A stretch of 37,727 bases of DNA from a virus: the IMG/VR virus record IMGVR_UViG_3300030104_001838, positions 1 through 37,727 of that record. The stretch is one strand, 5' to 3'. Made by a program: the position numbers and the translations under genes. Shown here piece by piece: positions 1 to 23,886 of the stretch; within the stretch, counting starts at the first letter, position 1; the number at the start of each line of letters is the position of its first letter. The notes under the pieces are model-generated. The model ran no database searches and was not told the origin of the DNA. It worked only from the letters and a program-made list of their open reading frames with translations.

Positions 1-99
1 CAGACAACTCGTTCTTAAACATAGCTGTTGACTTTTTATTTATAACAGCTTCACCACCTTCTAACTCTGTAACTTGACCACCTACAGCAAACTTAACCC
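1..99. repeat. Terminal overlap, left copy (circular closure)
   Basis: These 99 bases are identical to 37629-37727. They lie inside the tape-measure coding sequence, and joining the two copies restores one continuous frame. The simplest reading is an assembly overlap on a circular or circularly permuted genome of 37,628 bp. A real direct terminal repeat inside a structural gene would be unusual. Confidence 0.95.
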
Positions 100-3079
100 C
101 GCCTTGAGCGTGACTCGGGCCTTCAACAACCCCACCTTTAGCCATTGTTTGACTTGTTATTAACGCAAGGTTAGATGCGTATGCTACAGCAGCTATAGCC
201 GATAATGTTTGCGCTTGAGTTAAACCCCAAAGTCCACCTGTAGCTACGTTTTGAACATTTGGAGACATCGCGTTCAATCTAATAGCAGCTAATTCTCTAG
301 CGAATGATATTGTTAGTAAAGCTATATCTCTTTTCTTAGTCTTTTCAAAAGCTTCTTTTTCTAAAGCCTCTCTCTCTCTTTCATACCTAACTTCAGATAT
401 AACACCACTATCAAACTTTAATTGCAAAGCATCCATCTCTTCTTGATTTGACTTCATATAGTTTTCGTGTGCACGATTAACCCAAGAAGAAGACATTTGA
501 GCTAGGGTGTCAAACATTTTTTGATGTAGCTTTATTTTTTGTTTAACCTCATCCCTAGTACTGTCAATACTTAACTTACTTAACCTTAAGTTTAATGCAG
601 ATTGCTTCTCTTTAAGTTTGTTTATATTATCAATACCTAGTTCGTGTGTTGCTTCTACTGTTTCCATCTCAGCAAGCTCTGCATCAAATGCAGCTTGAGT
701 TATCTCACCCTTACCAAGTTTATCTAACAACTCTGAGAAAGCGTTTATATCTACAGGTATTTCAACTACGCCATCAAGCATCTTTTGTATCATATCAAGG
801 TCAGCTCCAATCATCTTGATTTCAATCTCAGTGATTACCTCTTGAGTTAAGTTTTTCTCTTCACCATCTATAGTGACCATAGCTTGGTCAGGTTTCTTAA
901 AAAAGTTAGTCCATATATTATCTTCGCTTGGAACTAACAGCTTACTTAAATCTGCTTTAGTTTCTGCAGCAGTAACCTTAGCCTCTTGAGCCATCTTTCT
1001 ATAAGCCATAGATGTAGCAGCAATTCTTTTTATTCTTTCTTCATCTCCCTCTGTTAATCTCTTTAATCTTTCTTCATCACTCTGAGCAAGCCTAATTAAG
1101 TTATCATCTAAGGTTTGAACATTTCTTATCATCGTCATTACGTGAGAGCTTTCTATTTTTGCTCTATCCTCTCCGTCAAAACCTAGACTAAGTTCTTCTT
1201 GCCAATGTTTATTATAATCATTTCTTATTTTGATTAGTTGGTCAAATAAATCTATTAACTCTTTAGCTCTTTTCTTTTGTTCTTTAGTTCCTTCTTTTGC
1301 CTCAAGTTGAAGTCTTCTGTATTCAGAAGCACCCCCATCTTCTTGCATAATCATACCTGAAACTTGACTAGCATCCTCGCTTCTTAATAATCTTTCAGCT
1401 TCTTTCTTTATTCTTTGGCCTTCTAATAAGCTTTTATTTTGTTCAACAATAGTCTCAGCAGCACTTGTCCCAATCGAATCAGTAAACAATGAAAGTGTAA
1501 CTATGTCGTTAAATATAGCAAGGAAAGCTTCCCAATTTGATAACACATCATCCTCTTGATTAAATAAGTTAAGCATTCTAGTAACGTTGCTTATAACATT
1601 TACAGCAGCATCACTATCACCTACGTTAACTTTGAAGTTAGTCCAAGCAGCGGTCATTTTATCTATAGCCATCTGACCTGAATCCATTTGCTCATTAAGT
1701 CCTTCTTGTAAAGATGATGCAGTGCCTGTGTCTGTATTATATACTTGTAACTGCTCATTATACATATCCATATTCTCCCCTGCGATAGCAAGTATAGATG
1801 TAAGACCACGAACATTACCAAACATTTGTTCTACGAATGCAGGGTTTTCTTTATAAGCTATATTCAACCTTCTCATTGTTTCAGTAAAACCTATAAGCTT
1901 CATCTCAGCAGCACCAACAGGTATACCAAACTTTGTAAACAAGTGCATTGATTCAGTAGCAGGTTTCTGCATTTGAGATATAGCAGCACGAAGAGCAGTT
2001 ACAGTCTTAGCAGCATCAAGACCTGTACGAGTAGTAACAGATATAGCAGCACCTAATTCTTCAAAAGATATTCCTGATGCAGCAGCGAAGGGTAATACAA
2101 CCCCTATAGATTTAGCTAACTCCTCTACTGTTGTTACACCAAACTTCTGAGTAGTAAATAATGTTTCAGCAATTCTTGTAGCTTCATCAGAAGACTTACC
2201 ATAAGCGTTCATTACAGAAACAATACCTGTAACAGCAGAGGTTAAATCAGTAACACCTGCGACAGCTAATGTAGACGCAGCATCTAAAAATTCAATAGCT
2301 TCACCACCCTTAACACCTGCAGATACAGTATTAAATAATGCTTTGTTTACATCACTAGCAGCAAGACCATACTTATTCATTATATCAAGTGATCCTCCCC
2401 ATAAGCTTTCCCTAAGTAAACCTTTATCTTCAGTAGATAATAATGTTAAAACATTCTTAATACCTTTTTCAAACTCAGCAAATTGTTGTACACTTTCAGA
2501 GGTGAATTGCGCTATTTGTCTTAAGGCTCTTGAAACAGCAACCATCTTTATTCCTTGAAGAGCTAACGCTGCTGCACTTTTGTTTGTAGCTTTAGCGTTC
2601 CTCTCTCTTAGCCTTGCTTCTTTCTTTAAAGCTTGGTGACGCATTCTAGCGTCTTTCTTTTCTTTTGCTTCCTTAGCTTTTCTTGCCTTCTCTCTTTTCT
2701 TTTCTAAGTCACTAAGTCTTTTCTTTTCTTTCTTCTCGTCAGCTAATTGTTTTTTCCTAGCAGCAGCAGCTTTCTTCTCCTCTTCTTTCTTTTTCCTAAT
2801 AGCCTCTTTAGCAGCAGTAACGCCTGTAGCCTCATCTCTTAAAGCTTTCTCATGCTTCTTAAGTTCATCATTTAGAATTTTGTAATCTTGTTTTCTTTTC
2901 TGAAGAGCATTTGTTTCAGCAATACTCATCTTCACATGCTCACCTGCTTCCTTTAGTTGCTCTTTTCTTGTTGCATTAAACTCGTCTAAGGATGCTTTAG
3001 CTTCATCTGTTTTCTTAGTAAGCTCGTGTAGTTCATTAAGACCTTTAATGTCTAGACTAAATATTATATCTTTTTGCAT
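1..3079 (-). CDS. Tail tape-measure protein (N-terminal part, continues at 37628)
   Basis: This protein sets tail length and occupies the tail tube lumen until DNA ejection. The visible part starts MQKDIIFSLDIKGLNE at 3079 and stays open to base 1. Across the circular junction it continues to a stop at 37330, for 1125 residues in total. Residues of about 60-150 form a Lys/Glu/Ala-rich coiled coil. Next comes a region resembling the PhageMin_Tail domain, with the pattern SAGVKGGEAIEFLDAAS followed by TSAVTGIVSVMNAYGKS. A hydrophobic Ala-rich stretch lies near the C terminus. Its upstream neighbour in the transcript is the tail-tip gene, 16 bases away. In most siphophages the tape measure precedes the tail-tip genes, so the order here is reversed. 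The identification is confident from length, domain and composition. Confidence 0.93.
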   Translation of the reverse strand, partial: MQKDIIFSLDIKGLNELHELTKKTDEAKASLDEFNATRKEQLKEAGEHVKMSIAETNALQKRKQDYKILNDELKKHEKALRDEATGVTAAKEAIRKKKEEEKKAAAARKKQLADEKKEKKRLSDLEKKREKARKAKEAKEKKDARMRHQALKKEARLRERNAKATNKSAAALALQGIKMVAVSRALRQIAQFTSESVQQFAEFEKGIKNVLTLLSTEDKGLLRESLWGGSLDIMNKYGLAASDVNKALFNTVSAGVKGGEAIEFLDAASTLAVAGVTDLTSAVTGIVSVMNAYGKSSDEATRIAETLFTTQKFGVTTVEELAKSIGVVLPFAAASGISFEELGAAISVTTRTGLDAAKTVTALRAAISQMQKPATESMHLFTKFGIPVGAAEMKLIGFTETMRRLNIAYKENPAFVEQMFGNVRGLTSILAIAGENMDMYNEQLQVYNTDTGTASSLQEGLNEQMDSGQMAIDKMTAAWTNFKVNVGDSDAAVNVISNVTRMLNLFNQEDDVLSNWEAFLAIFNDIVTLSLFTDSIGTSAAETIVEQNKSLLEGQRIKKEAERLLRSEDASQVSGMIMQEDGGASEYRRLQLEAKEGTKEQKKRAKELIDLFDQLIKIRNDYNKHWQEELSLGFDGEDRAKIESSHVMTMIRNVQTLDDNLIRLAQSDEERLKRLTEGDEERIKRIAATSMAYRKMAQEAKVTAAETKADLSKLLVPSEDNIWTNFFKKPDQAMVTIDGEEKNLTQEVITEIEIKMIGADLDMIQKMLDGVVEIPVDINAFSELLDKLGKGEITQAAFDAELAEMETVEATHELGIDNINKLKEKQSALNLRLSKLSIDSTRDEVKQKIKLHQKMFDTLAQMSSSWVNRAHENYMKSNQEEMDALQLKFDSGVISEVRYEREREALEKEAFEKTKKRDIALLTISFARELAAIRLNAMSPNVQNVATGGLWGLTQAQTLSAIAAVAYASNLALITSQTMAKGGVVEGPSHAQGGVKFAVGGQVTELEGGEAVINKKSTAMFKNELS

Positions 3080-3095
3080 TGTAATTGTTTTACTA

Positions 3096-6000
3096 CTAGT
3101 GAGTTAATCTTTCTTTATCTCCTCTACTGCTAACCAATACTAATTCTACTTCAGTAGGTTCTGCGTTAGCAGGATTATAATCTTTTATTCTACTTATAAT
3201 ATATCTTTCGTTTCCTATAACAACAAGCCTTCTGTAGTTAATCTGAGCTACATCACTAGGTGATAGATGAACTAAAGCAGTAACTAATTCATCTCTATCT
3301 TTAAACATCTCGATTTGTGATTGATGAAATCTGTTAAAGAATCCACCTTTAGCGTGAGAGTTTTGAGAATTAGCTTTACTAAATGTTGCAGGGAAAACAT
3401 CTTCACCTGGCATATATGAAACTGCGTGACCATGCCAAATTGATGGTTGGCTTATATAATATTCATTACTATCGTCGCCTTCGGTTAAACTTTTTTCTAA
3501 GTTGTATGTTATTCTGAAGTCATCGTGATGTCTACAACCTAAGTAAATCAATAACTTATGTTCATGACTCCCGTTAACATCAGGCTTTCTATGGTTTCTC
3601 ATAAACCCATAAGTATCTTCACTGTACACTTGAGGAATCCATAAAGCTAACCTAGATATTTCTCCACCAACAGATTTAACTGCTAAGTTCGATTCCCAAT
3701 TCATTTTACAGGTAGCTAAAAACTTTAAAGAAACATCTTTAACTTCTTTATCTTTATTTCTATTTGTTTCAAAAAGCACGTCGCCAAACAGAACAGAGTT
3801 CTCAGTCATACCTTTCTGAAGAGTTCTATCAGAGCCGTCGTTAACAAAATTGTAAGAAACATTAGTAGAAAGCAAAGAGTCTTTCTTTGTATTTATTATT
3901 ACAGCCTTATCATCCCAAAGATAGTAATCATATATCTTAGCATCCCAATCATAAAAGTAACGGAATGGCTCGCACTCAGCAACTTTAGTGTGAGGGTTTG
4001 ATTGCCAAACTAAATTATACAGCTTACTTATTTCAGAAACAAATTCAATAGGTGTAACATTAGGGAGTATGTGTTCCATCTTAACTTTAGGTATCGCTTC
4101 AAAAGTACTTCCGTTACCTGGATATATTAATGCCCAATTAAACAAAGGCGCTACCTGATGAGATAATTTTATTTCAAGCTCACACCCAACTACTTCTGAA
4201 AAACCTCTACTATAAACACCTTGCATAAAATCAATTGCTATAACGCCATCAAAGTACATTATACAATATTGATGACCTGCCCTTAAAAAACAATCGTAAC
4301 CTAAGTTAACATTTCTATTCATAGCGACTTGAAGGTTACCACCTAGCTCTTGGTTATATATGGTGTCATCAGGTTGTATCTCTTGTTTGTTGTTTTGATT
4401 TTCATCACTTAGAGTTTGCATATTAGAACCAAACAATAGACCCATTCCCCTCTCGGTAAACGTAGAGTCAATGTTACCCCAAACAGGACATAATCCTAAT
4501 GACACAAATCTTGTAGGCTGCCAAGTATAATCATAATTAAAACCTCCACCACCAGGCGCTACAGGCATGTACATATTAACAACCATGTTTGCAGTTATCC
4601 TATAGTAACCACTTGTGTTTACTGTGATAAAAGATTTCTGACCAATGCTACCAGCACCTTGAGTAATATCATTAAAGAAGTTAACCTCGTAACCTGCAGA
4701 GTATCCAGATAAAGCACCACTACCAAATGTCCCACCATTTGAACCCCAATTTTGAACTTCACTAGGAGCAACGTCCCTAACGACATGTTGAGTGTTGCTA
4801 TCTTGGTGCTCTGTTTCAAAACGTAAAGCTCTTTGAGTAACCCAAACAGCATTCGTTGGGCTAGAAGGAAACTTCATCATCCTCATGTGCGCATTATTCC
4901 CATACATAGGATTAGACCTAGTCTTCTGAATATTAGATGTTTCTAATAATATTATACTATTATTTATAGCGTCTTGGTGAACCCTAGCTTCAGCAGGAGT
5001 ACCTATAAGTTGGTTATAATGATTTTCAAAATCACTACCAAAAGAAGCAAACTCATTATTTTGTTTTAGCACTTCAGATTTAAAAGACCAACCTATACTA
5101 TCAAAAATCTTATCCATTACCCTTGCAATTCTATAGCTAGGTCTTAAGTGGTCTACTGTTATAGCTAATATTTCTTCGTTATCATCCCACTCACCTTGAT
5201 TAGTGTCACGCCACTTACCAACATCCAATAACGGGAATCTCATGTTACTAGCCGTAAAAAGATTAGCCGTTAATATGTTGTTTGCTGTCAATCTCCAAGA
5301 AGACATTGTTGAGTCGGAAACAAAAAGATTTCTTAAATGAGAGGTGGTTGTGTCTAAAAGTTGTGCCCAACTATTGTTACCACCTTTAAATAATAAATCT
5401 AAAGACTCTTCTCCGTACTCATTATATTGAACGCTATCTAAAAACACGCTCCCTTTAAATACTTGAGTACCATCTACGTAAGCCTCAGCTCCAATACCTT
5501 GAAAGAATTGCTCACTATATACTGCAGTTATTTCATCTTGACTATCAAAAGCTTTTAAGTTATTTTTAGTAGCAGGAACTTTAACAGTCTTAGTGTAGTC
5601 CCCGTTAAGGGAATCTAACACTTCGTAATTCTTTGAGTTTAAGTTTAAAGCAAAAGGCTCTGTGTCTTTAAATAAATCTATATCATGTTGAACAGATTCG
5701 TAACCAAAATAAGTAGTTGGATTTTTTGCTTCCAACCAAACCTTTCTTACTTGGCACTCAAGTGTTGTGTTAGCGTTGTCGTGAGAAAATTCCAAAATTA
5801 TACTACCTAATCCGTAAAGATTACTAGGTATAGTTCTATCTATTTCTATAATACCTTCTGATGTTATGTCGTGAGTTGACGCTACACCTGTAAGGTAATC
5901 AGTAACAGTTAGCGTTGTGTCTGCATGAATGTCTTGAACATCAACATAAATCGTAACAACTTGCGCAGCCATTATTATAGGAATCATGTTTGCAGCAGGG

Positions 6001-9000
6001 TCAGAATCGAATAGCAAAAGGTCTAAGTTTGCACTAATAGATGGTAAGCCTGCAGAAGAGGTTGTCCCATCGGCTGTTGTTACAGTCCAAGAGGAATCTA
6101 TTACTCCATCATTATTAGCGTAAACTAGGCAGTCATTATTAGAGCCTGTAGCCACTTGCATTACTTGTAAAATTGGCTCGTTTGTAGCAAAGCCACAAGT
6201 GTCAATTAAAGCGTCAAGACCATAACCTGTAGTGTCTGACGGAGTTATCTCTAATAGTTTAGTTTGACCTAAGTTAACGTATTCAGTGTATGTTTGACCT
6301 GTTGTGGTGTTAGCTGTTATATTCCAAATAATTTCTCCATTATCATCTAACCCACGTATTCTTAATGTATCTTTTTGCCCAGCTGATTGAGCTGCAGGAG
6401 AAGCATAAACTATTGATGAAATACTTATAGTAAAATTACACCAACCACTTTCACCCTCTTCTACTGCAGGAACTTTTCTTATTAAACGAGGCTTCGGAGT
6501 TTTAGTTCTTGTAGGATCGTAATACAGTCTAGCCTTATTAGTACCTAGAGGGTCTTTGGTTATATGTGAAAATTCATTAGTGTGAAATTTAATATAACCT
6601 AATTTAAAAAAACTCATGTTATCGAAACCAGTCTCCTCTATACACGCTGTTAATAAGTTACCAACTGCGTTACCTGCTTGGTCATAGCTATTCATTTCAT
6701 GAGCTCCAGACTGAGCGCAAGCAACATGCTTATACATTTTTGTAGACCAAGTATTAATTCCTGAGTTTTGCGCAAACATATTTAAGCTACGAGAACCTAC
6801 AGCTATAGTGAAATCAAAGTCCTTATGTTTATTTATATAAAACCCCTTATTATCTTTAGGTTGAAACTCAGCAGGATATAATGTTACTGTCCACGGATCA
6901 TTGTTAGAGCCTGACCCCCAATTATAAGTGTTATCATATCCGTTTGGGGTTATTAATTGAGCCCACTCACTACTCTCTGCATAGTAATAAGTGTTTGCTT
7001 GATAAAACGACATCCCATAACCTGCTGATTGACCAAAGTCATCGTGAGTACCCTCTAACACCAAACCACCAAAAAAAGAATTTGAATCAACCTCCCAATA
7101 GAAATCATTAATAGTATCTTTCCTTATTCTCCTAGTTGTTAATACTAGCGGATGTAAACCTAACCTACCTATTGTAGAGTCTACTGTTGTATGATGATTA
7201 AAAGCAGCGTTCCCTGCGCCGTCAGCTAATTGTTTATAGTGATAAGATTGAGTTCCCATTCTCCAACCTAAGCCTTGCTCTTGTATCTGCATCTCCCATA
7301 TCTGACTTAAAGTAGCCCCCTCGTCCCAAACAATTATAATATACCCATCATCATTAGTTACTAAGTGATTTTCAGCTATAAAATCAAACTGAACATGCTC
7401 GTCATTATATTGGTTTCCACCAAATTTCATCCACTGAGTACCTCTATCTGCTATTGCAACTTCCCAATCTTCACTTCTATTTTGTGTAAAGTAAATGTAA
7501 CCACCCTTATTAGCCATGTTCGTTTTAAACCTAATGTACATGTGATAATGAACTTGGAATAAAATATTAATCCTCATTCTAATAACCATTCTACTTGTTT
7601 GGGCTTGCACACCTGGACCTGGTTGAACTTGCATGTATTGAACTCCACCATCAGAAAAACTTGAATTCATATTTGCAAGAGTTTGAGTTACAGTAGCTTC
7701 ACCATTAAAATACGAGCGCTCTAAAGGTTCAAACTGTCCAAAAGCTCCTGTGTTAGAGGGGTGGCTTGGAGGATAGTTAGTGTGACCATTTTGCGTCCAA
7801 CCATTTAAAAGAGTGTAAGGAGATAAATCTACAGGAGTCCACTGCTCACCATCTTCTTGAACCTTGTAGAAATTTAAAGATAAAGTTACTGTAGCCATTT
7901 CACCAGCGTGACCTAATATAACATCATCCATTTCGTTACCATTATCAGGTTGTGTTATCTTATTAAACGCAGTGACTTGAGCTATAACAGGGTTGTATTT
8001 ATTTAATTTGGGAGTGTAGCCTTGCTCTATATAATTATACATACCTGCCGTAGACTCAGTAAATCTACCATTTTCATTTACAACATTCTCATAAAAATAA
8101 AAATTACTATCACTACCATTTTGTATATTATCTGTGTTAAGGAATAAGTCTAATACACTATCTACATTCAAGTAGTGCCAAGACTTACCTGTATTTGTAA
8201 CCCAACTATTACCTACGGAAGTAGATTCGTCAACCTTCATAAACCATTTTCTCTTGCACGCTGAATACCCTAGAGCCATTTGCTTGTTATAAAAATTAAA
8301 AGCTTTCCAAGAAGATATCATATGCCAATATGGGTGTATAGCAAACTTACCACCACCGGCAGAAACATTCCATACCTGAGTGATAAAGTTTGGGTAAGCA
8401 AGGTTGTTGTTGTTATATTGAGAGTATGTATTATTGGCGTTGTCTGTTGCTGAGAAGTTATCTTCATATCTCATAGAGAATACGGGCGTATCATAATTAG
8501 TCAGTGAAGAAGGTCTAGCATACAGTAATCCTTTAAAAGGATAATCATCTGTAGTCATACCAGTAAAGTTGTTCGATGTAACGAACGGATATGTTTCAGC
8601 ATCAGCCCAAACATTATCAATAATATCACCTAAGTTACTATTAATCCACGGATCATTCAAACTACCCGCCTCATGAATAAGCCCTGAATTGTCTACGCTA
8701 TACATTAATGGAATCCAATCTTCAGGCATTAAAAATAAACCCCAAGCATTTGAGCCATTTAAGTCTAACTGAGTTGAAGAAAGTATTGGACTAGGAGCAG
8801 GTGAGTCCATTAATCTTTTTTCCCAAGTAGAGAAATCACCATTTGAATTAGCTCCCGTAAAATTTTGAACAAATAAAGGAGAGAAGTTAGTGTTTTCCCA
8901 TCCGTAAGCACCGACTGCGTATTGATAATAATCATCGTATTGCCAATCTTTCCAAGAATTGTTTAACCAATTAATCTCTTGACTTTCGTAAGTAACAGTA

Positions 9001-9053
9001 ACATCAGTTACCTGAGCCCTATCTACTAGTATCTTAAATATATTAGCTTGCAT
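3096..9053 (-). CDS. Giant tail-tip / baseplate protein (1985 aa)
   Basis: This is the largest gene of the genome. It is rich in Asn, Ser, Thr, Tyr and Trp with little Lys-rich coil, as expected for a beta-structured extracellular virion protein. Around residues 1130-1180 it carries NYEVLDSLNGDYTKTVKVPA followed by KNNLKAF. This resembles a segment recurring in tail proteins of Bacteroidota phages, where a short 'G.Y.KT..+P.TK.N' motif opens a beta domain. The C terminus (NYRRLVVIGNERYIISRIKD) has a similar tail-protein flavour. It begins one base after the stop of the 461-residue tail gene and is followed by the tape measure, so it is in the tail block. A role in host recognition or as a central tail-tip hub is inferred from size and context. 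I see no obvious enzymatic domain. Confidence 0.8.
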   Translation of the reverse strand: MQANIFKILVDRAQVTDVTVTYESQEINWLNNSWKDWQYDDYYQYAVGAYGWENTNFSPLFVQNFTGANSNGDFSTWEKRLMDSPAPSPILSSTQLDLNGSNAWGLFLMPEDWIPLMYSVDNSGLIHEAGSLNDPWINSNLGDIIDNVWADAETYPFVTSNNFTGMTTDDYPFKGLLYARPSSLTNYDTPVFSMRYEDNFSATDNANNTYSQYNNNNLAYPNFITQVWNVSAGGGKFAIHPYWHMISSWKAFNFYNKQMALGYSACKRKWFMKVDESTSVGNSWVTNTGKSWHYLNVDSVLDLFLNTDNIQNGSDSNFYFYENVVNENGRFTESTAGMYNYIEQGYTPKLNKYNPVIAQVTAFNKITQPDNGNEMDDVILGHAGEMATVTLSLNFYKVQEDGEQWTPVDLSPYTLLNGWTQNGHTNYPPSHPSNTGAFGQFEPLERSYFNGEATVTQTLANMNSSFSDGGVQYMQVQPGPGVQAQTSRMVIRMRINILFQVHYHMYIRFKTNMANKGGYIYFTQNRSEDWEVAIADRGTQWMKFGGNQYNDEHVQFDFIAENHLVTNDDGYIIIVWDEGATLSQIWEMQIQEQGLGWRMGTQSYHYKQLADGAGNAAFNHHTTVDSTIGRLGLHPLVLTTRRIRKDTINDFYWEVDSNSFFGGLVLEGTHDDFGQSAGYGMSFYQANTYYYAESSEWAQLITPNGYDNTYNWGSGSNNDPWTVTLYPAEFQPKDNKGFYINKHKDFDFTIAVGSRSLNMFAQNSGINTWSTKMYKHVACAQSGAHEMNSYDQAGNAVGNLLTACIEETGFDNMSFFKLGYIKFHTNEFSHITKDPLGTNKARLYYDPTRTKTPKPRLIRKVPAVEEGESGWCNFTISISSIVYASPAAQSAGQKDTLRIRGLDDNGEIIWNITANTTTGQTYTEYVNLGQTKLLEITPSDTTGYGLDALIDTCGFATNEPILQVMQVATGSNNDCLVYANNDGVIDSSWTVTTADGTTSSAGLPSISANLDLLLFDSDPAANMIPIIMAAQVVTIYVDVQDIHADTTLTVTDYLTGVASTHDITSEGIIEIDRTIPSNLYGLGSIILEFSHDNANTTLECQVRKVWLEAKNPTTYFGYESVQHDIDLFKDTEPFALNLNSKNYEVLDSLNGDYTKTVKVPATKNNLKAFDSQDEITAVYSEQFFQGIGAEAYVDGTQVFKGSVFLDSVQYNEYGEESLDLLFKGGNNSWAQLLDTTTSHLRNLFVSDSTMSSWRLTANNILTANLFTASNMRFPLLDVGKWRDTNQGEWDDNEEILAITVDHLRPSYRIARVMDKIFDSIGWSFKSEVLKQNNEFASFGSDFENHYNQLIGTPAEARVHQDAINNSIILLETSNIQKTRSNPMYGNNAHMRMMKFPSSPTNAVWVTQRALRFETEHQDSNTQHVVRDVAPSEVQNWGSNGGTFGSGALSGYSAGYEVNFFNDITQGAGSIGQKSFITVNTSGYYRITANMVVNMYMPVAPGGGGFNYDYTWQPTRFVSLGLCPVWGNIDSTFTERGMGLLFGSNMQTLSDENQNNKQEIQPDDTIYNQELGGNLQVAMNRNVNLGYDCFLRAGHQYCIMYFDGVIAIDFMQGVYSRGFSEVVGCELEIKLSHQVAPLFNWALIYPGNGSTFEAIPKVKMEHILPNVTPIEFVSEISKLYNLVWQSNPHTKVAECEPFRYFYDWDAKIYDYYLWDDKAVIINTKKDSLLSTNVSYNFVNDGSDRTLQKGMTENSVLFGDVLFETNRNKDKEVKDVSLKFLATCKMNWESNLAVKSVGGEISRLALWIPQVYSEDTYGFMRNHRKPDVNGSHEHKLLIYLGCRHHDDFRITYNLEKSLTEGDDSNEYYISQPSIWHGHAVSYMPGEDVFPATFSKANSQNSHAKGGFFNRFHQSQIEMFKDRDELVTALVHLSPSDVAQINYRRLVVIGNERYIISRIKDYNPANAEPTEVELVLVSSRGDKERLTH

Positions 9054-10448: not shown

Positions 10449-10988
10449 TTATTTAAATTTATCAAAAGCTCTAAACTTCTTCTCAGCAAACGTTTCTATC
10501 TGAGAAGTAAAATCTATAGCAAACTCTTGTAAGAATTTTTTATTTTCTACTTGTAGTGTTTCGTTTAACCAACCCACTTTTCTTTTTTGTCTATCCTTAA
10601 ACATAAATCCTTCAGTCTTCATGTTTCTTACTATAGCACTAATCATTGACTCAAAGGGATTTTTTAATTTCTTTCCACTTTTATAGTGAGTCTTATTTGG
10701 CTTCAACCCTTTAGCTCTCGCCCATTCTCTAATCGCTTGTCTAGGAGGATGCCAGTTAGGTCTTAAATCGTTTCTAGCGTTTATGTAGTCACCATACCTA
10801 AGCATTGAAACTTGAAGCCTAAGCTTTCCGTCAGACGTAACTTTAGTTCTAGTTCTTATTGAGTCGTGAAGTTTTCCCGTAACAATATGGTCACGAGTCA
10901 CAAGCTTTCTTTTTAAAGCCTGTGTCATAAGCCTTGCTCGGTACATCATCTTACCTTTAAGGCGCTTCTTTAACTCATCAATAGTCAT
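10449..10988 (-). CDS. Tail-completion / HK97-gp10-like protein (179 aa)
   Basis: This is a strongly basic 179-residue protein. Its N-terminal half reads KRLKGKMMYRARLMTQALKR, then DHIVTGKLHDSIRTR. The 'tG.L..Si..+' pattern followed by a beta hairpin is typical of head-tail or tail-completion proteins of the HK97 gp10 type. The ATG overlaps the stop of the preceding gene in a TAATG junction at 10988, so translation is probably coupled. It sits between the tail-terminator-like/LamG fusion and the 461-residue tail protein, which fits a neck or tail-completion role. No enzymatic motif is visible. The family assignment rests on a short motif plus context. Confidence 0.55.
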   Translation of the reverse strand: MTIDELKKRLKGKMMYRARLMTQALKRKLVTRDHIVTGKLHDSIRTRTKVTSDGKLRLQVSMLRYGDYINARNDLRPNWHPPRQAIREWARAKGLKPNKTHYKSGKKLKNPFESMISAIVRNMKTEGFMFKDRQKRKVGWLNETLQVENKKFLQEFAIDFTSQIETFAEKKFRAFDKFK

Positions 10989-12250
10989 TAATCTAAAACT
11001 CTTCTCATTAAATATTCATTAACTCGTTTAGCGTTCTTATCATTAAGAGCGTCTTGGTATATAATAACATCTTTCATCTCACCATTCATGCTAGAAAAAG
11101 AGGCTGAGTAAGCAAAACTCGCTATAGCAAAAGCTCCTATAAATAAATCTTTTTGGTCAATATCATTTTGATAATCATCGTAATAGTTATTTATTTTAAA
11201 AGAAGGATTGTTATTTACAATAATCCTTCCCTCTTGATTTGTTTTATCGCTGATAAACCCAATAGCCATCCACTTATCAAACTCTATATCAGGACTAATT
11301 TCTTCTTTAAACATATTAACGTGATTACTTCCATCAACACCATCAAGAGAATCAACTTGTACACCAAGCTGACTTTTTCTTCCACCAGTAGTATAACCTG
11401 AGTTAGTGTAAATTAATCTAAACCAATCATCTGATTCGTTATTTGCTGTGGTAGCTCTTGAACTAAACAAGCATCTACTTAAGGTGTCGGCGTCATCCTT
11501 AAGTTTTACTAATACAAAAATACTAAAGTTGTCAGTAGAAGGAAATCCTGAAGCAAAGTTTGGATACATCATTGATTGATGTGGAGAGTGACCTTCAAAT
11601 ATCCAAGAGTTACTAACATTACTAAATGCAGGTATTGAATAAGCAGCAGTATCACCTGATAAGTTGCTTTCTTCTACAAATTCACTAGAGTTATTTATAG
11701 CTTCCCAACTGAGGTTAGAGTTACCTACAGTAACACCTGATGTGGTTTTAAAATGAGCGTGAAGATTTGTTGTTGGAAGAGAGGATGTACTACCACTACC
11801 TTCACTTAAAACAGAAGGCATGTCAACTTCAAACTGAACCTTGACACCCATAAGTTTATCATTACCTAAATTCTTAACCCTTTCTATTCTTACTCCTTTT
11901 TTGTTTACAGAGACTCCACCAAACGCACCCGTTCTAGTTTTCATTAAGTAGTCAAGAAACTTAGAGAACAATTTTTGAGTAGAGTCATAATGCTCAACAT
12001 CTACTCTGTTGTCTTTGAATCCGTCAGGCTCTAATAGATAAGCAGTGAAAGTGTGCCGCTCCCAACCTCTATTTAGATTTTCTACTGTAGATGTTGATGG
12101 TTCAATAATAAGTAAAGGGTAATTAGTATTGTGAGTTTTATTAACATCACTAATATCTTCCATTCTGTAAGAACCTAAGCCTGTAGTTGAGTCAGCAGCT
12201 TGCTGAAACTTTACGCTTATGTTTCCTAATGTTGAATAAGTTGTAGGCAT
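10988..12250 (-). CDS. Tail-terminator-like protein fused to a LamG/ConA-like domain (420 aa)
   Basis: The protein has two parts. Residues 1 to about 150 look like a compact tail or head-tail protein, with segments such as SRFLDYL-type helices around KLFSKFLDYLMKTRTG and a final strand KLMGVKVQFEVDMPSV. Residues of about 160-420 look like a concanavalin/LamG jelly roll, with FSIFVLVKLKDDADTLSRCL and an ending GEMKDVIIYQDALNDKNAKR then VNEYLMRRV. That closing 'E.i.Y..aL.d....+v..YL' pattern is characteristic of LamG-like domains. It starts at a TAATG junction shared with the -1-frame end of the tail-assembly chaperone gene. The likely role is a tail-tube terminator carrying a surface-exposed glycan-binding decoration. 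The domain split is seen in the sequence; the function is inferred. Confidence 0.62.
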   Translation of the reverse strand: MPTTYSTLGNISVKFQQAADSTTGLGSYRMEDISDVNKTHNTNYPLLIIEPSTSTVENLNRGWERHTFTAYLLEPDGFKDNRVDVEHYDSTQKLFSKFLDYLMKTRTGAFGGVSVNKKGVRIERVKNLGNDKLMGVKVQFEVDMPSVLSEGSGSTSSLPTTNLHAHFKTTSGVTVGNSNLSWEAINNSSEFVEESNLSGDTAAYSIPAFSNVSNSWIFEGHSPHQSMMYPNFASGFPSTDNFSIFVLVKLKDDADTLSRCLFSSRATTANNESDDWFRLIYTNSGYTTGGRKSQLGVQVDSLDGVDGSNHVNMFKEEISPDIEFDKWMAIGFISDKTNQEGRIIVNNNPSFKINNYYDDYQNDIDQKDLFIGAFAIASFAYSASFSSMNGEMKDVIIYQDALNDKNAKRVNEYLMRRVLD

Positions 12251-12462
12251 TACATTCTAGTTTTATTTTCTAATTTATCTGTATGGTATTCGTTAATTAA
12301 ATAATCATAATTACCACACTCTACTTTATAGTTGAGGTAGAGTAGAACATCTGATGTGCACGTATCTTTAACACATTCAATCCCACTTTTACCTTGTCCA
12401 TCAAAGACACCCGACTCCGCGACTTCATATAAGGACTTAAGCCAACCGAACCTTCCAAGAGT
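12250..12462 (-). CDS. -1-frame extension of the tail-assembly chaperone (gpT-like part)
   Basis: In the frame -1 to the 259-residue chaperone gene, the reading is open from the A-run at 12462 to a TAA at 12250-12252. It encodes 70 residues beginning TLGRFGWLKSLYEVAESGVF. This peptide looks like the downstream half of tail-assembly chaperones (a 'GW.K.LY..A..GVF' helix followed by a nine-residue 'VLLYLNYKV' helix). The stop forms a TAATG junction with the next gene, the same junction used at 14555, 10988, 31188 and 30442. The zero frame over the same bases uses codons rare for this genome (TCG, CGG, CGG, GTG) and leaves a 70-base gap before the next gene. A fused product would be 283 residues. 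Confidence 0.8.
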   Translation of the reverse strand, partial: TLGRFGWLKSLYEVAESGVFDGQGKSGIECVKDTCTSDVLLYLNYKVECGNYDYLINEYHTDKLENKTRM

Positions 12463-13100
12463 TTTTTCATAGATTCGTTTTTCTTTTCCAGTGGAACTCC
12501 CGTGTTGGTGAGAGCTGCGAGACTGAATATCTCTAACTGCTTGTCCAAAAAAAAAGCGAAGTCCATAGCTATTGTACTTGGAAGTTCTAAGAACTCTTCT
12601 GCTAATTTATCCCTCTCCTCTTCACTCATATTCCCTTTAACTGTATGGGCTATCTGATGAGATAGGAACTCCATGTTCGATGGGTTTTGAGCTTGAGAAA
12701 CCATTTCAGCTTGTAAAGAATTTATGTACTGACCAAACTTTGTTTCTAGAGCTAGGTTCTCAGGTATGAAATATTCAACACCTTTAAACGTAAAGCTCTT
12801 AAGTATTTTATCTTCTCTATCTTCGTGTATAAATAAAAGAAGATTTATGTAATCTCTTATTACATGAAGGCTTTCAGTTTCTAAATCCTTTGTACTTACA
12901 CCTGAAAACGCAGACATTATACCTGCTTTTAATTTTGACTCAGCAATCATTTTCTCTAAGTCGGTAACTTCTTCTTCTCTCTCTTTAAATTCTTCGTAAT
13001 CTTTTTTGTATACCTGTAAAGCTATATTGTAATCAGAAAATTGTTTTAATGTAACATCTTCCCATGACTCAGGTAAATCGTATCCTAAATGTTTTAACAT
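12321..13100 (-). CDS. Tail-assembly chaperone, zero-frame product (259 aa)
   Basis: This is a predicted chaperone that coats the tape measure during tail assembly. The N terminus MLKHLGYDLPESWEDVTLKQ resembles a start common among Bacteroidota-phage chaperone-like proteins ('P.sWed.Tl.qf'). The protein is Glu/Lys-rich and helical, with an acidic coiled segment at residues 30-60. About residue 213 the message reads ATG AAA AAA C, and a -1 slip there switches to the 70-residue extension ending at 12250. The last 46 zero-frame residues (LLEGSVGLSPYMKSRSRVS and onward) look like out-of-frame reading of that extension. It follows the large terminase gene by 6 bases. Lambda G/GT and many siphophages use the same two-product arrangement. 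Here it is four genes away from the tape measure instead of adjacent. Confidence 0.72.
   Translation of the reverse strand: MLKHLGYDLPESWEDVTLKQFSDYNIALQVYKKDYEEFKEREEEVTDLEKMIAESKLKAGIMSAFSGVSTKDLETESLHVIRDYINLLLFIHEDREDKILKSFTFKGVEYFIPENLALETKFGQYINSLQAEMVSQAQNPSNMEFLSHQIAHTVKGNMSEEERDKLAEEFLELPSTIAMDFAFFLDKQLEIFSLAALTNTGVPLEKKNESMKKLLEGSVGLSPYMKSRSRVSLMDKVKVGLNVLKIRAHQMFYSTSTIK
12461..12470 (-). promoter_or_regulatory. Candidate -1 ribosomal frameshift site
   Basis: On the minus strand this reads ATG AAA AAA C in the zero frame. A tRNA-Lys on the second AAA can re-pair perfectly one base upstream and continue as ACT CTT GGA in the -1 frame. A second candidate is the nine-T run at 12547-12555 (GCT TTT TTT TTG), a canonical X XXY YYZ site. 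The -1 frame is open from both sites. Codon use and peptide quality between the two sites favour the zero frame, so the A-run is preferred. Confidence 0.6.
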
Positions 13101-13106
13101 ATCTGT

Positions 13107-14555
13107 TTATCTAAATGCTGTTATCCTTGAACTTCTATTGTTTAAATCTAAAGCTATCTGTAAGCAGTCAACCATATCATCGTGACGAGCATTTGGAAAC
13201 TGAGTGCATTGAGATAGAAAGTTATCTATCCATTGTCCCTCAATTAAATTTACTCTTCGTGATTCTATTATGTTAACCACATCCATTACTCTAGCTACCT
13301 TATCTTTAGCAGGTGGTTTAGCCTCTAATACATTAAGGGAAGTATTTCTCCTTAAGGTTTGCACTATTGATTTACCACTAGCTTTAGGTTCTACATATAT
13401 CCTTGAGCTTCTATTGTAACCATTACGATTACTAAATAGAGTAATGTATTTAAGGAGTTCAGGGAACTCCAAATATTTTTCCTCAACACTTCTTATGTAG
13501 AACTCATTATCTTTTACTGCGAAAGCTAATAGAGCAGAAGGGTCGTTATTTTCTTTTGATGTGTAAGCAGGGTCAACAACAAACTTCCAGGCTTTAATAT
13601 CGTCAGGAGCTTTTCTTATTATGTTGAACCATTCCTTTTTAATTATACCTCCATCTGCAGGAGCAGGTGATTGTTGTAATTGACCTGCGTATTCATAACT
13701 ACCTAGTTGGTATTTATAATCTTGTAATATATCTCTAGAGAATCTAGTATCCCAAAACAATTCTTTCTTATAAAACTTCTTTAACCCTTCAGGTTGCAGA
13801 CCATCAGTTATCTCTGCAGGGATGCAGATATGTTTATAGTTGTCAGGATTGTTTCTTAAAAGGAATCCACTTAAATCATCTTCATGTAATCTTTGCATTA
13901 TAATAATACGAACACCAGTCTTTGGATTATCTAAACGAGAGTACAGAGTTCCTGTATACCATTCGTTAGCTCGAGTTCTTTCTGTTTGACTCATAGCTTC
14001 CTTAGGACTTGTAGGGTCATCGACTATTATTATAGATGCACCCGCACCTGTAACTGTACCTCCAACAGATGTAGCTCTTCGTGATCCTGTGTAATCGTTT
14101 ACGTAATTTTGTTTTGTATTTTGGTCTTGTTTAATTGTGAATAGTTCTCCCCAATTATTTTGAAACCAATCACTATTGATTACATCTCTCGACTTTGCTG
14201 AATGCTCAATAGACAGAGAAGAGCTGTAAGAAGCTGTAATAAACCGAAGCTTTGGGTCACGAATCCAACACCATACAGGAAAGAGAACAGTGCACATAAG
14301 AGATTTTGAAGCACGAAAAGGAATATTAATAATAATATCTTTCGTCTTCTTTTCTCCATTGATTATTCTTTCAGCTTCTGTTTGTAATACTTTGCAAATA
14401 TATTTATGATGCCAATTAATATCTAACTCCACAGCAGGCTCTACTACTTTGAATGATTCTTTAAAGAACTCAAAGTATGAAAGCTCACACATCTTTTTCT
14501 TGATAGCTTGCTTTACCTCAACACTTACTTCAGGAGTTTCAGAATTAATTTCCAT
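13107..14555 (-). CDS. terL: Terminase large subunit (482 aa)
   Basis: This is the DNA-packaging motor ATPase and nuclease. Residues 79-86 (PFRASKSL) are the Walker A-like adenine/phosphate loop typical of phage TerL. ASIIIVDDPTSP, around residue 170, is Walker B. The C-terminal RNase H-like nuclease begins at about residue 320 with FVVDPAYTSKENNDPSALLA, where the first Asp should bind metal, and ends with ARHDDMVDCLQIALD supplying the further acidic residues. The length is normal for TerL. The ATG forms a TAATG junction with the small gene upstream, and the tail-assembly chaperone follows 6 bases after the stop. No portal gene follows, which is unusual; the portal is about 19 kb further along the transcript. 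Confidence 0.95.
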   Translation of the reverse strand: MEINSETPEVSVEVKQAIKKKMCELSYFEFFKESFKVVEPAVELDINWHHKYICKVLQTEAERIINGEKKTKDIIINIPFRASKSLMCTVLFPVWCWIRDPKLRFITASYSSSLSIEHSAKSRDVINSDWFQNNWGELFTIKQDQNTKQNYVNDYTGSRRATSVGGTVTGAGASIIIVDDPTSPKEAMSQTERTRANEWYTGTLYSRLDNPKTGVRIIIMQRLHEDDLSGFLLRNNPDNYKHICIPAEITDGLQPEGLKKFYKKELFWDTRFSRDILQDYKYQLGSYEYAGQLQQSPAPADGGIIKKEWFNIIRKAPDDIKAWKFVVDPAYTSKENNDPSALLAFAVKDNEFYIRSVEEKYLEFPELLKYITLFSNRNGYNRSSRIYVEPKASGKSIVQTLRRNTSLNVLEAKPPAKDKVARVMDVVNIIESRRVNLIEGQWIDNFLSQCTQFPNARHDDMVDCLQIALDLNNRSSRITAFR

Positions 14556-23292: not shown

Positions 23293-23622
23293 ATGAGTAC
23301 GATTACAGGAGTAGTCAAGAAAATTCTACCTGTTGAACAGGGGGAATCAACGTCAGGTAAGACCTGGCAGAAACAGTCGTTTGTTATAACGACAACGGAC
23401 AAGTTTCCTAAAGATGTTTGTTTCTCTACCTTTGGTGAGAAGTTATCTCTTATAGGTAAGCTAACTGTTGGTGAGTCTGTTAATGTTAGTTACAACATTT
23501 CATCAAGAGAGTACAACGGAAAGTATTATCACAACATTGATGCTTGGAAAGTAGATATGTTAAGTTCTGATAATTCTAATCAAGGCTTTACCTCTGCCAA
23601 AGAGGAAAATTTACCATTTTAA
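23293..23622 (+). CDS. SSB-like OB-fold protein, DUF3127 type (109 aa)
   Basis: The N-terminal 90 residues fit the DUF3127 pattern of Bacteroidota: GKTWQKQSFVITTTDKFPKD then VCFSTFG, a 'G..V.V.y.i.SREYNGKYYH' strand and an AWK finish, the layout of an OB fold. The protein ends KEENLPF, like the acidic DLPF tail by which SSBs recruit replication partners. It should coat single-stranded DNA and hand it to the neighbouring annealing protein and nuclease. This family is largely restricted to Bacteroidota and their phages, so it is good host evidence. A terminator-like hairpin follows 11 bases after the stop. Confidence 0.8.
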   Translation: MSTITGVVKKILPVEQGESTSGKTWQKQSFVITTTDKFPKDVCFSTFGEKLSLIGKLTVGESVNVSYNISSREYNGKYYHNIDAWKVDMLSSDNSNQGFTSAKEENLPF

Positions 23623-23633
23623 TTAATGTTGTG

Positions 23634-23656
23634 AAGGGGGTTTAACTACCCCTTTT
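23634..23656 (+). terminator. Terminator-like hairpin (copy 3)
   Basis: AAGGGG at 23634-23639 pairs with CCCCTT at 23649-23654 across a 9-base loop GTTTAACTA. The run TTTT then begins at 23653. It belongs to the same G-run/C-run family as 16654 and 17018 and closes the recombination block. Confidence 0.65.
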
Positions 23657-23679
23657 ATAACCTAAAAAACTGTTTAGCT

Positions 23680-23886
23680 ATGACAAAGAAAGCTACATCA
23701 CCTAAGGTGAAAACAAAAGAGATGAACGATATGATTAAGAGGGCTTTACAAGAAGCCGACTTAAGATTTAAATGTTTGGATTTAGTTCAAGGTATCTCTA
23801 AGAATGTTGATGAGATGAAATCTAATGCTGATAAGATATACAGCTATGTATTTCACTTAGACAAGAAAGAAACTTCTGATGATTAA
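23680..23886 (+). CDS. Small charged helical protein (68 aa)
   Basis: Unrecognised. It is Lys-rich at the start (MTKKATSPKVKTKEMNDMIK), then an amphipathic helix ending FHLDKKETSDD. Its stop overlaps the following membrane-protein start by 8 bases. It is the first gene after the terminator at 23634-23656, so it may begin a new transcript, although no convincing TAnnTTTG box precedes it. Confidence 0.6.
   Translation: MTKKATSPKVKTKEMNDMIKRALQEADLRFKCLDLVQGISKNVDEMKSNADKIYSYVFHLDKKETSDD

Follow-up and report, generated by a model that had tools for sequence, protein, structure and literature searches.

Sequence comparison strongly supports a conserved -1 recoding event, in the gene next to the terminase large subunit gene (terL), that would join an upstream domain to a T-like domain encoded in the -1 frame. 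The DNA, from a marine bacterial virus, is a 37.7-kb IMG/VR viral record with a G+C content of 35%, analysed over its whole length (the window). A -1 slip that gives two proteins is a known trick of phage tail building; here it is widespread and unannotated. The gene is likely to specify two tail-assembly chaperones comparable to lambda G and GT, made by this recoding. A tail-chaperone frameshift had been proposed in a sequence-only reading of the window, and the recoding is borne out by 11 related contigs and about 142 distant loci; the chaperone identity we infer from the architecture, the gene module and weak fold matches, rather than from a direct family match.

The recoded gene (13100-12321, minus strand) starts six bases after terL (Table 1). 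As anticipated, the -1 frame is open to a TAA at 12250; it extends from 12606 to the stop at 12252-12250, 118 codons from stop to stop, and translation of the trans-frame product yields the predicted length of 283 amino acids. The frame holds FGWLKSLYEVAESGVF, the window's form of the GW.K.LY-type motif noticed earlier, and its stop forms with the next gene a TAATG junction that, as had been claimed, recurs identically at four other late genes (10988, 14555, 30442 and 31188). The zero frame after the slip does use disfavoured codons, with a relative adaptiveness of 0.38 compared with 0.66-0.73 in late genes. The -1 frame scores 0.48 within the overlap, so that both frames are low there, as expected if both code, and 0.93 downstream of the zero-frame stop. 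In the proposed scheme, most readings would presumably stay in the zero frame and give a G-like protein of 259 amino acids, and some would slip back one base at the run of nine Ts (T9) and give a protein with the same front and a different end. On the lambda model, the G part would be expected to cover the tape measure, with the T part bringing in tail-tube subunits.

Table 1. Features of the recoded gene and its neighbours in the window
Feature	Position	Strand	Remarks
terL (terminase large subunit)	13107..14555	-	phrog_38, E 1.1e-100; upstream neighbour of recoded gene
Zero-frame gene, G-like product (259 aa)	12321..13100	-	Stop TAG at 12323-12321; conserved in 11 related contigs
N-terminal domain, common to both products	12546..13100	-	185 codons
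T9 slip site	12547..12555	-	T_TTT_TTT in zero-frame phase at 12555-12549
T-like domain in -1 frame	12250..12546	-	98 aa + TAA; homologous to P12024S gp39 region
Stretch read in both frames	12324..12545	-	74 codons; shuffle and synonymous-site tests
A-run of the earlier reading, not the slip site	12461..12470	-	Not conserved in relatives
TAATG junction of -1 stop with next gene	12248..12252	-	Overlap not kept in relatives, where the start is a few bases further on
Downstream neighbour of recoded gene	10988..12250	-	In the place of P12024S gp41; first ~150 residues kept in relatives
Third gene of the module	10449..10988	-	At the position of P12024S gp42, which the copies in relatives match (E 7e-4 to 3e-4)
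Tape measure protein, cut by window end	2..3079	-	PF10145, E 1.7e-29

A search with the terminase found eight contigs, of which one is identical over 7.3 kb and seven are non-identical relatives, and a profile search added three relatives, one nearly identical to another, for a total of 11 contigs. In all 11, both frames are open in the gene after the terminase, and the run is exactly T9, in the context GAY TTC KCT TTT TTT TTG. Starting from the T-run, the -1 product can be aligned over about 85 codons without a gap, and GW.K.LYE.A....F is invariant. In the upstream coding part of these genes Phe is encoded by TTT in 68% of cases and Leu by TTG in 13%; the run is thus not a by-product of codon usage. 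The sequence-only reading had preferred the A-run as the slip site, with the T-run as its alternative, and it is the alternative that stands. The A-run is rejected, because it is not conserved in relatives and conservation of the -1 product is already present between the T-run and the A-run; the slip is therefore placed at 12547-12555.

Profile comparison (hhalign) relates this family to the cultured Nonlabens/Persicivirga phage P12024S. Both halves of the gene are homologous, to gp38 (95.0%) and gp39 (93.6%) respectively (phrog_32199 and phrog_38404, of unknown function), and the slip sites are aligned. In P12024S (NC_018271, 23136-23830), T9 lies at 23578-23586 and the -1 frame is open from 23570 to 23830, for 86 codons. 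As in the window, the gene directly follows terL and precedes gp41- and gp42-type genes. However, the run is placed one base differently in the codons (CTT TTT TTT TAT), the zero frame stops 25 codons past the slip compared with 74 in the window, and the annotation makes the -1 part a gene of its own, gp39, which corresponds to its end and begins at an internal ATG. Phage P12024L has the same sequence at gp38/gp39. Thus, gp38 and gp39 look like one recoded gene. Using tblastn against cultured phages, distant G queries matched P12024S and P12024L only, plus one chance match (E 0.8); window-family proteins and distant T domains gave no match.

Scanning with the P12024S gene found 63 loci, and scanning with its -1 domain found 80. 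Among these rows, which include close duplicates so that the T9 loci are not all independent, T9 is present in 62 of the 63 from the gene scan (P12024S and 62 other loci, one of them with T10) and in 71 of the 80 from the domain scan (seven T10, one T8 and one without a run). T_TTT_TTT is in zero-frame phase in all but one of the 142 further loci, with run lengths of 8-10, and the extra Ts of longer runs come from flanking codons; some scan patterns spanned slip-site residues (FFYHLGND, FFLSFR), their wobble positions not being forced. At one locus (L204, 240-260) the T-run is broken (AAT TTT ATA TAC) and both frames are open, which is either an error or another slip site. In P12024S-like loci (L095, which is P12024S, to L125), the 30 bases after the T-run, TATCATTTAGG.AACGACTT, are nearly invariant, which fits double coding (YHLGNDL / LSFRERL); the bases at these positions differ in loci retrieved with the T domain. 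A genome scan with the P12024S family gave five contigs in metagenome-assembled genomes (MAGs), two of them assigned to Bacteroidetes, with T9 in 5/5, and the same kind of scan with the window family gave no match. Family contigs occur in MAGs labelled Epsilonproteobacteria, Euryarchaeota and Pseudooceanicola (L163, L164 and L165), probably through binning errors.

These comparisons bear on two other explanations. A homopolymer sequencing error, a phase-variable gene or a chance open frame might be suspected, since errors are common in homopolymers and no database entry matches the gene, but the presence of T9 in 11 contigs and nearly all distant loci, and the openness of both frames relative to shuffles, make any such artefact extremely improbable. 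Relatives with continuous frames had been named in advance as the finding that would speak against recoding; none was found among the relatives checked. Conservation of the run and of the frames in relatives, including the contig identical over 7.3 kb, which carries the same bases, leads us to reject assembly error and phase variation. A -1 domain encoded independently and initiated at its own start codon, the arrangement annotated for gp39, is also very improbable, even though codon 25 after the run is an in-frame ATG in P12024S. Conservation of the -1 frame starts at the run itself, and internal initiation is unlikely because the window's -1 frame has a start-type codon only at position 97 of its 98, and in several relatives none occurs ahead of the conserved motif.

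Unusually, 55-90 codons of DNA are common to the two ends, the zero frame being open over that length inside the -1 domain in most members. It continues for 70-93 codons past the slip in all ten window-family members tested; the median in the wider family is 60 codons, and the overall series spans 16-93 codons. Synonymous redrawing under the window's zero-frame protein left the -1 frame open over the 74 codons in 0 of 5000 trials. With the -1 protein fixed, a long zero frame had a probability of 0 to 0.006 per genome when codons were redrawn from window late-gene usage, and of 0 to 0.04 by within-gene shuffles in the window family. The corresponding values for long-tailed members of the wider family were 0 to 0.0095 by usage and, by the within-gene shuffle, which is the weaker test, 0.002 to 0.33; the P12024S clade gave no significant result. 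Conservation of synonymous codons in the -1 frame is 0.667 over the first 60 codons and 0.484 over codons 60-88; 60-codon stretches taken anywhere in the terminase plus the upstream gene have a mean of 0.545 and a maximum of 0.614 (bootstrap P for the first 60 codons, 0.0002 against the upstream gene and 0.004 against the terminase).

The shuffle and synonymous-site tests together indicate that both frames are under selection over about the first 60 codons of the overlap. In pair tests most changes past the first 20 codons are silent in the -1 frame, which therefore dominates there. We conclude that the zero frame is selected over roughly the first 20-60 codons. Selection on the whole zero-frame tail was considered and rejected, since past about 60 codons it is weak, and the AlphaFold2 model leaves the tail unfolded. 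What is selected may be the protein end, or merely an open frame that brings non-shifted ribosomes near the next start.

In lambda, the G/GT gene has a slip site of the G_GGA_AAG type and adjoins the tape measure gene, and its zero frame ends soon after the slip. The window shares with lambda the combination of an upstream product and a -1 frame extension (PMC5009743), with no detectable sequence homology. There are three departures from lambda: a bare poly-T site, a place on the terL side far from the tape measure, and a long, selected overlap; P12024S, with its 25-codon zero-frame tail, fits the lambda-type short end. In SPP1, a putative -1 shift on a U-run (UUUUUUC) yields the tail-chaperone products gp17.5 and gp17.5* (PMC6316719), a likeness in which the gene occupies a different place and homology is not shown.

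The order terL, recoded gene, gp41-like gene, gp42-like gene is kept across relatives. The recoded gene is not directly upstream of the tape measure: four genes lie between, as the sequence-only reading had counted (PF10145 open reading frame at 2-3079). Adjacency is a usual, not an obligatory, trait of lambda-type G/GT genes. The product of 10988-12250 has, beyond its conserved part, about 270 residues that vary among relatives and resemble an added domain. Directly before the tape measure is a late gene for 1985 amino acids (3096-9053) with no family match, and no further gene separates the two. The terminase is nearest to those of phages of Croceibacter, Chryseobacterium and Cellulophaga among cultured relatives, which points to a host among the Flavobacteriia.

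AlphaFold2 modelled the zero-frame protein confidently for residues 1-190 and not past 200, and the -1 domain alone with low confidence (mean pLDDT 61). With Foldseek, 23 predicted structures from viruses matched at E of 1e-3 or below, P12024S gp38 among them, and a protein named tail assembly chaperone matched weakly (E 0.076, prob 0.97). Pfam, PHROG and PDB fold and sequence searches with either half gave no family of known function. This result, and the position of the gene, adjacent to terL and four genes away from the tape measure, would suit a pair that is truly recoded and serves another step, such as packaging or head-tail joining. We regard that as improbable, since a conserved -1 site that gives two products with one N-terminus, in a phage with a tape measure, is the hallmark of tail chaperones, the weak fold match is to a named chaperone, and the downstream module is conserved in P12024S. 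A chaperone role for the two proteins is, on these grounds, highly probable.

Which machine slips is less firmly indicated. T_TTT_TTT has the in-phase X_XXY_YYZ form of a -1 ribosomal frameshift cassette, and T9 is also an A or T run of 8 or more, the form called for in transcriptional slippage. We lean towards the ribosome, because of the tail-chaperone analogy, the constant in-phase heptamer and the SPP1 UUUUUUC precedent. A downstream stem or pseudoknot had been expected for a programmed shift, but no such structure was found (0 consensus pairs; mean z +0.27 over 37 sequences, pseudoknots being outside the model), and U_UUU_UUU is a weak slip site in Escherichia coli (PMC5009743); both points count against ribosomal slippage. 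If RNA polymerase slipped on the nine Ts instead, a share of mRNAs would gain one U and then be translated normally. Such slippage accounts for most of these observations: A or T runs of at least 8 are typical of the mechanism (PMC3711429), no RNA structure was found downstream, and length 9 is strongly preferred. In Citrobacter tssM1 a homopolymer likewise gives two products without RNA structure (PMC4256274), although that run is of 11 As and slippage there was demonstrated by experiment, whereas here it is one possible reading of the sequence. Nevertheless, the tail-chaperone cases known so far are ribosomal (PMC5009743). Furthermore, where the pre-slip codon has an ending other than TT (AAT, GGT, AGT or, in the window family, kCT), the run starts exactly at the heptamer and its length of 8-10 varies with the next codon, as expected if only the in-phase heptamer matters. 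Polymerase slippage is thus a serious but rather unlikely alternative to the ribosomal slippage that we favour.

The fullest reading of these data is tentative, and we hold it at less than even confidence: a tail chaperone would have two alternative C-terminal ends, both functional, encoded in two frames of a single stretch of about 60-90 codons and chosen by slippage (possibly of RNA polymerase) on a bare poly-T run without RNA structure, across a large and as yet unannotated group of marine phages of flavobacteria.

Searches of the open literature, which covered few subscription papers, found no description of this recoded family, which probably belongs to flavobacterial phages. The family adds a large, apparently undescribed phage branch (of unknown function in PHROG) to the tail-chaperone recoding class, and both products gain a testable definition. 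For the cultured phages P12024S and P12024L, the two-gene annotation is suggested to represent one recoded gene. The family also offers a natural series (poly-T without structure, runs of 8-10, zero-frame tails of 16-93 codons) for the question of ribosome versus RNA polymerase, and the same series is suited to asking why a long second frame is kept.
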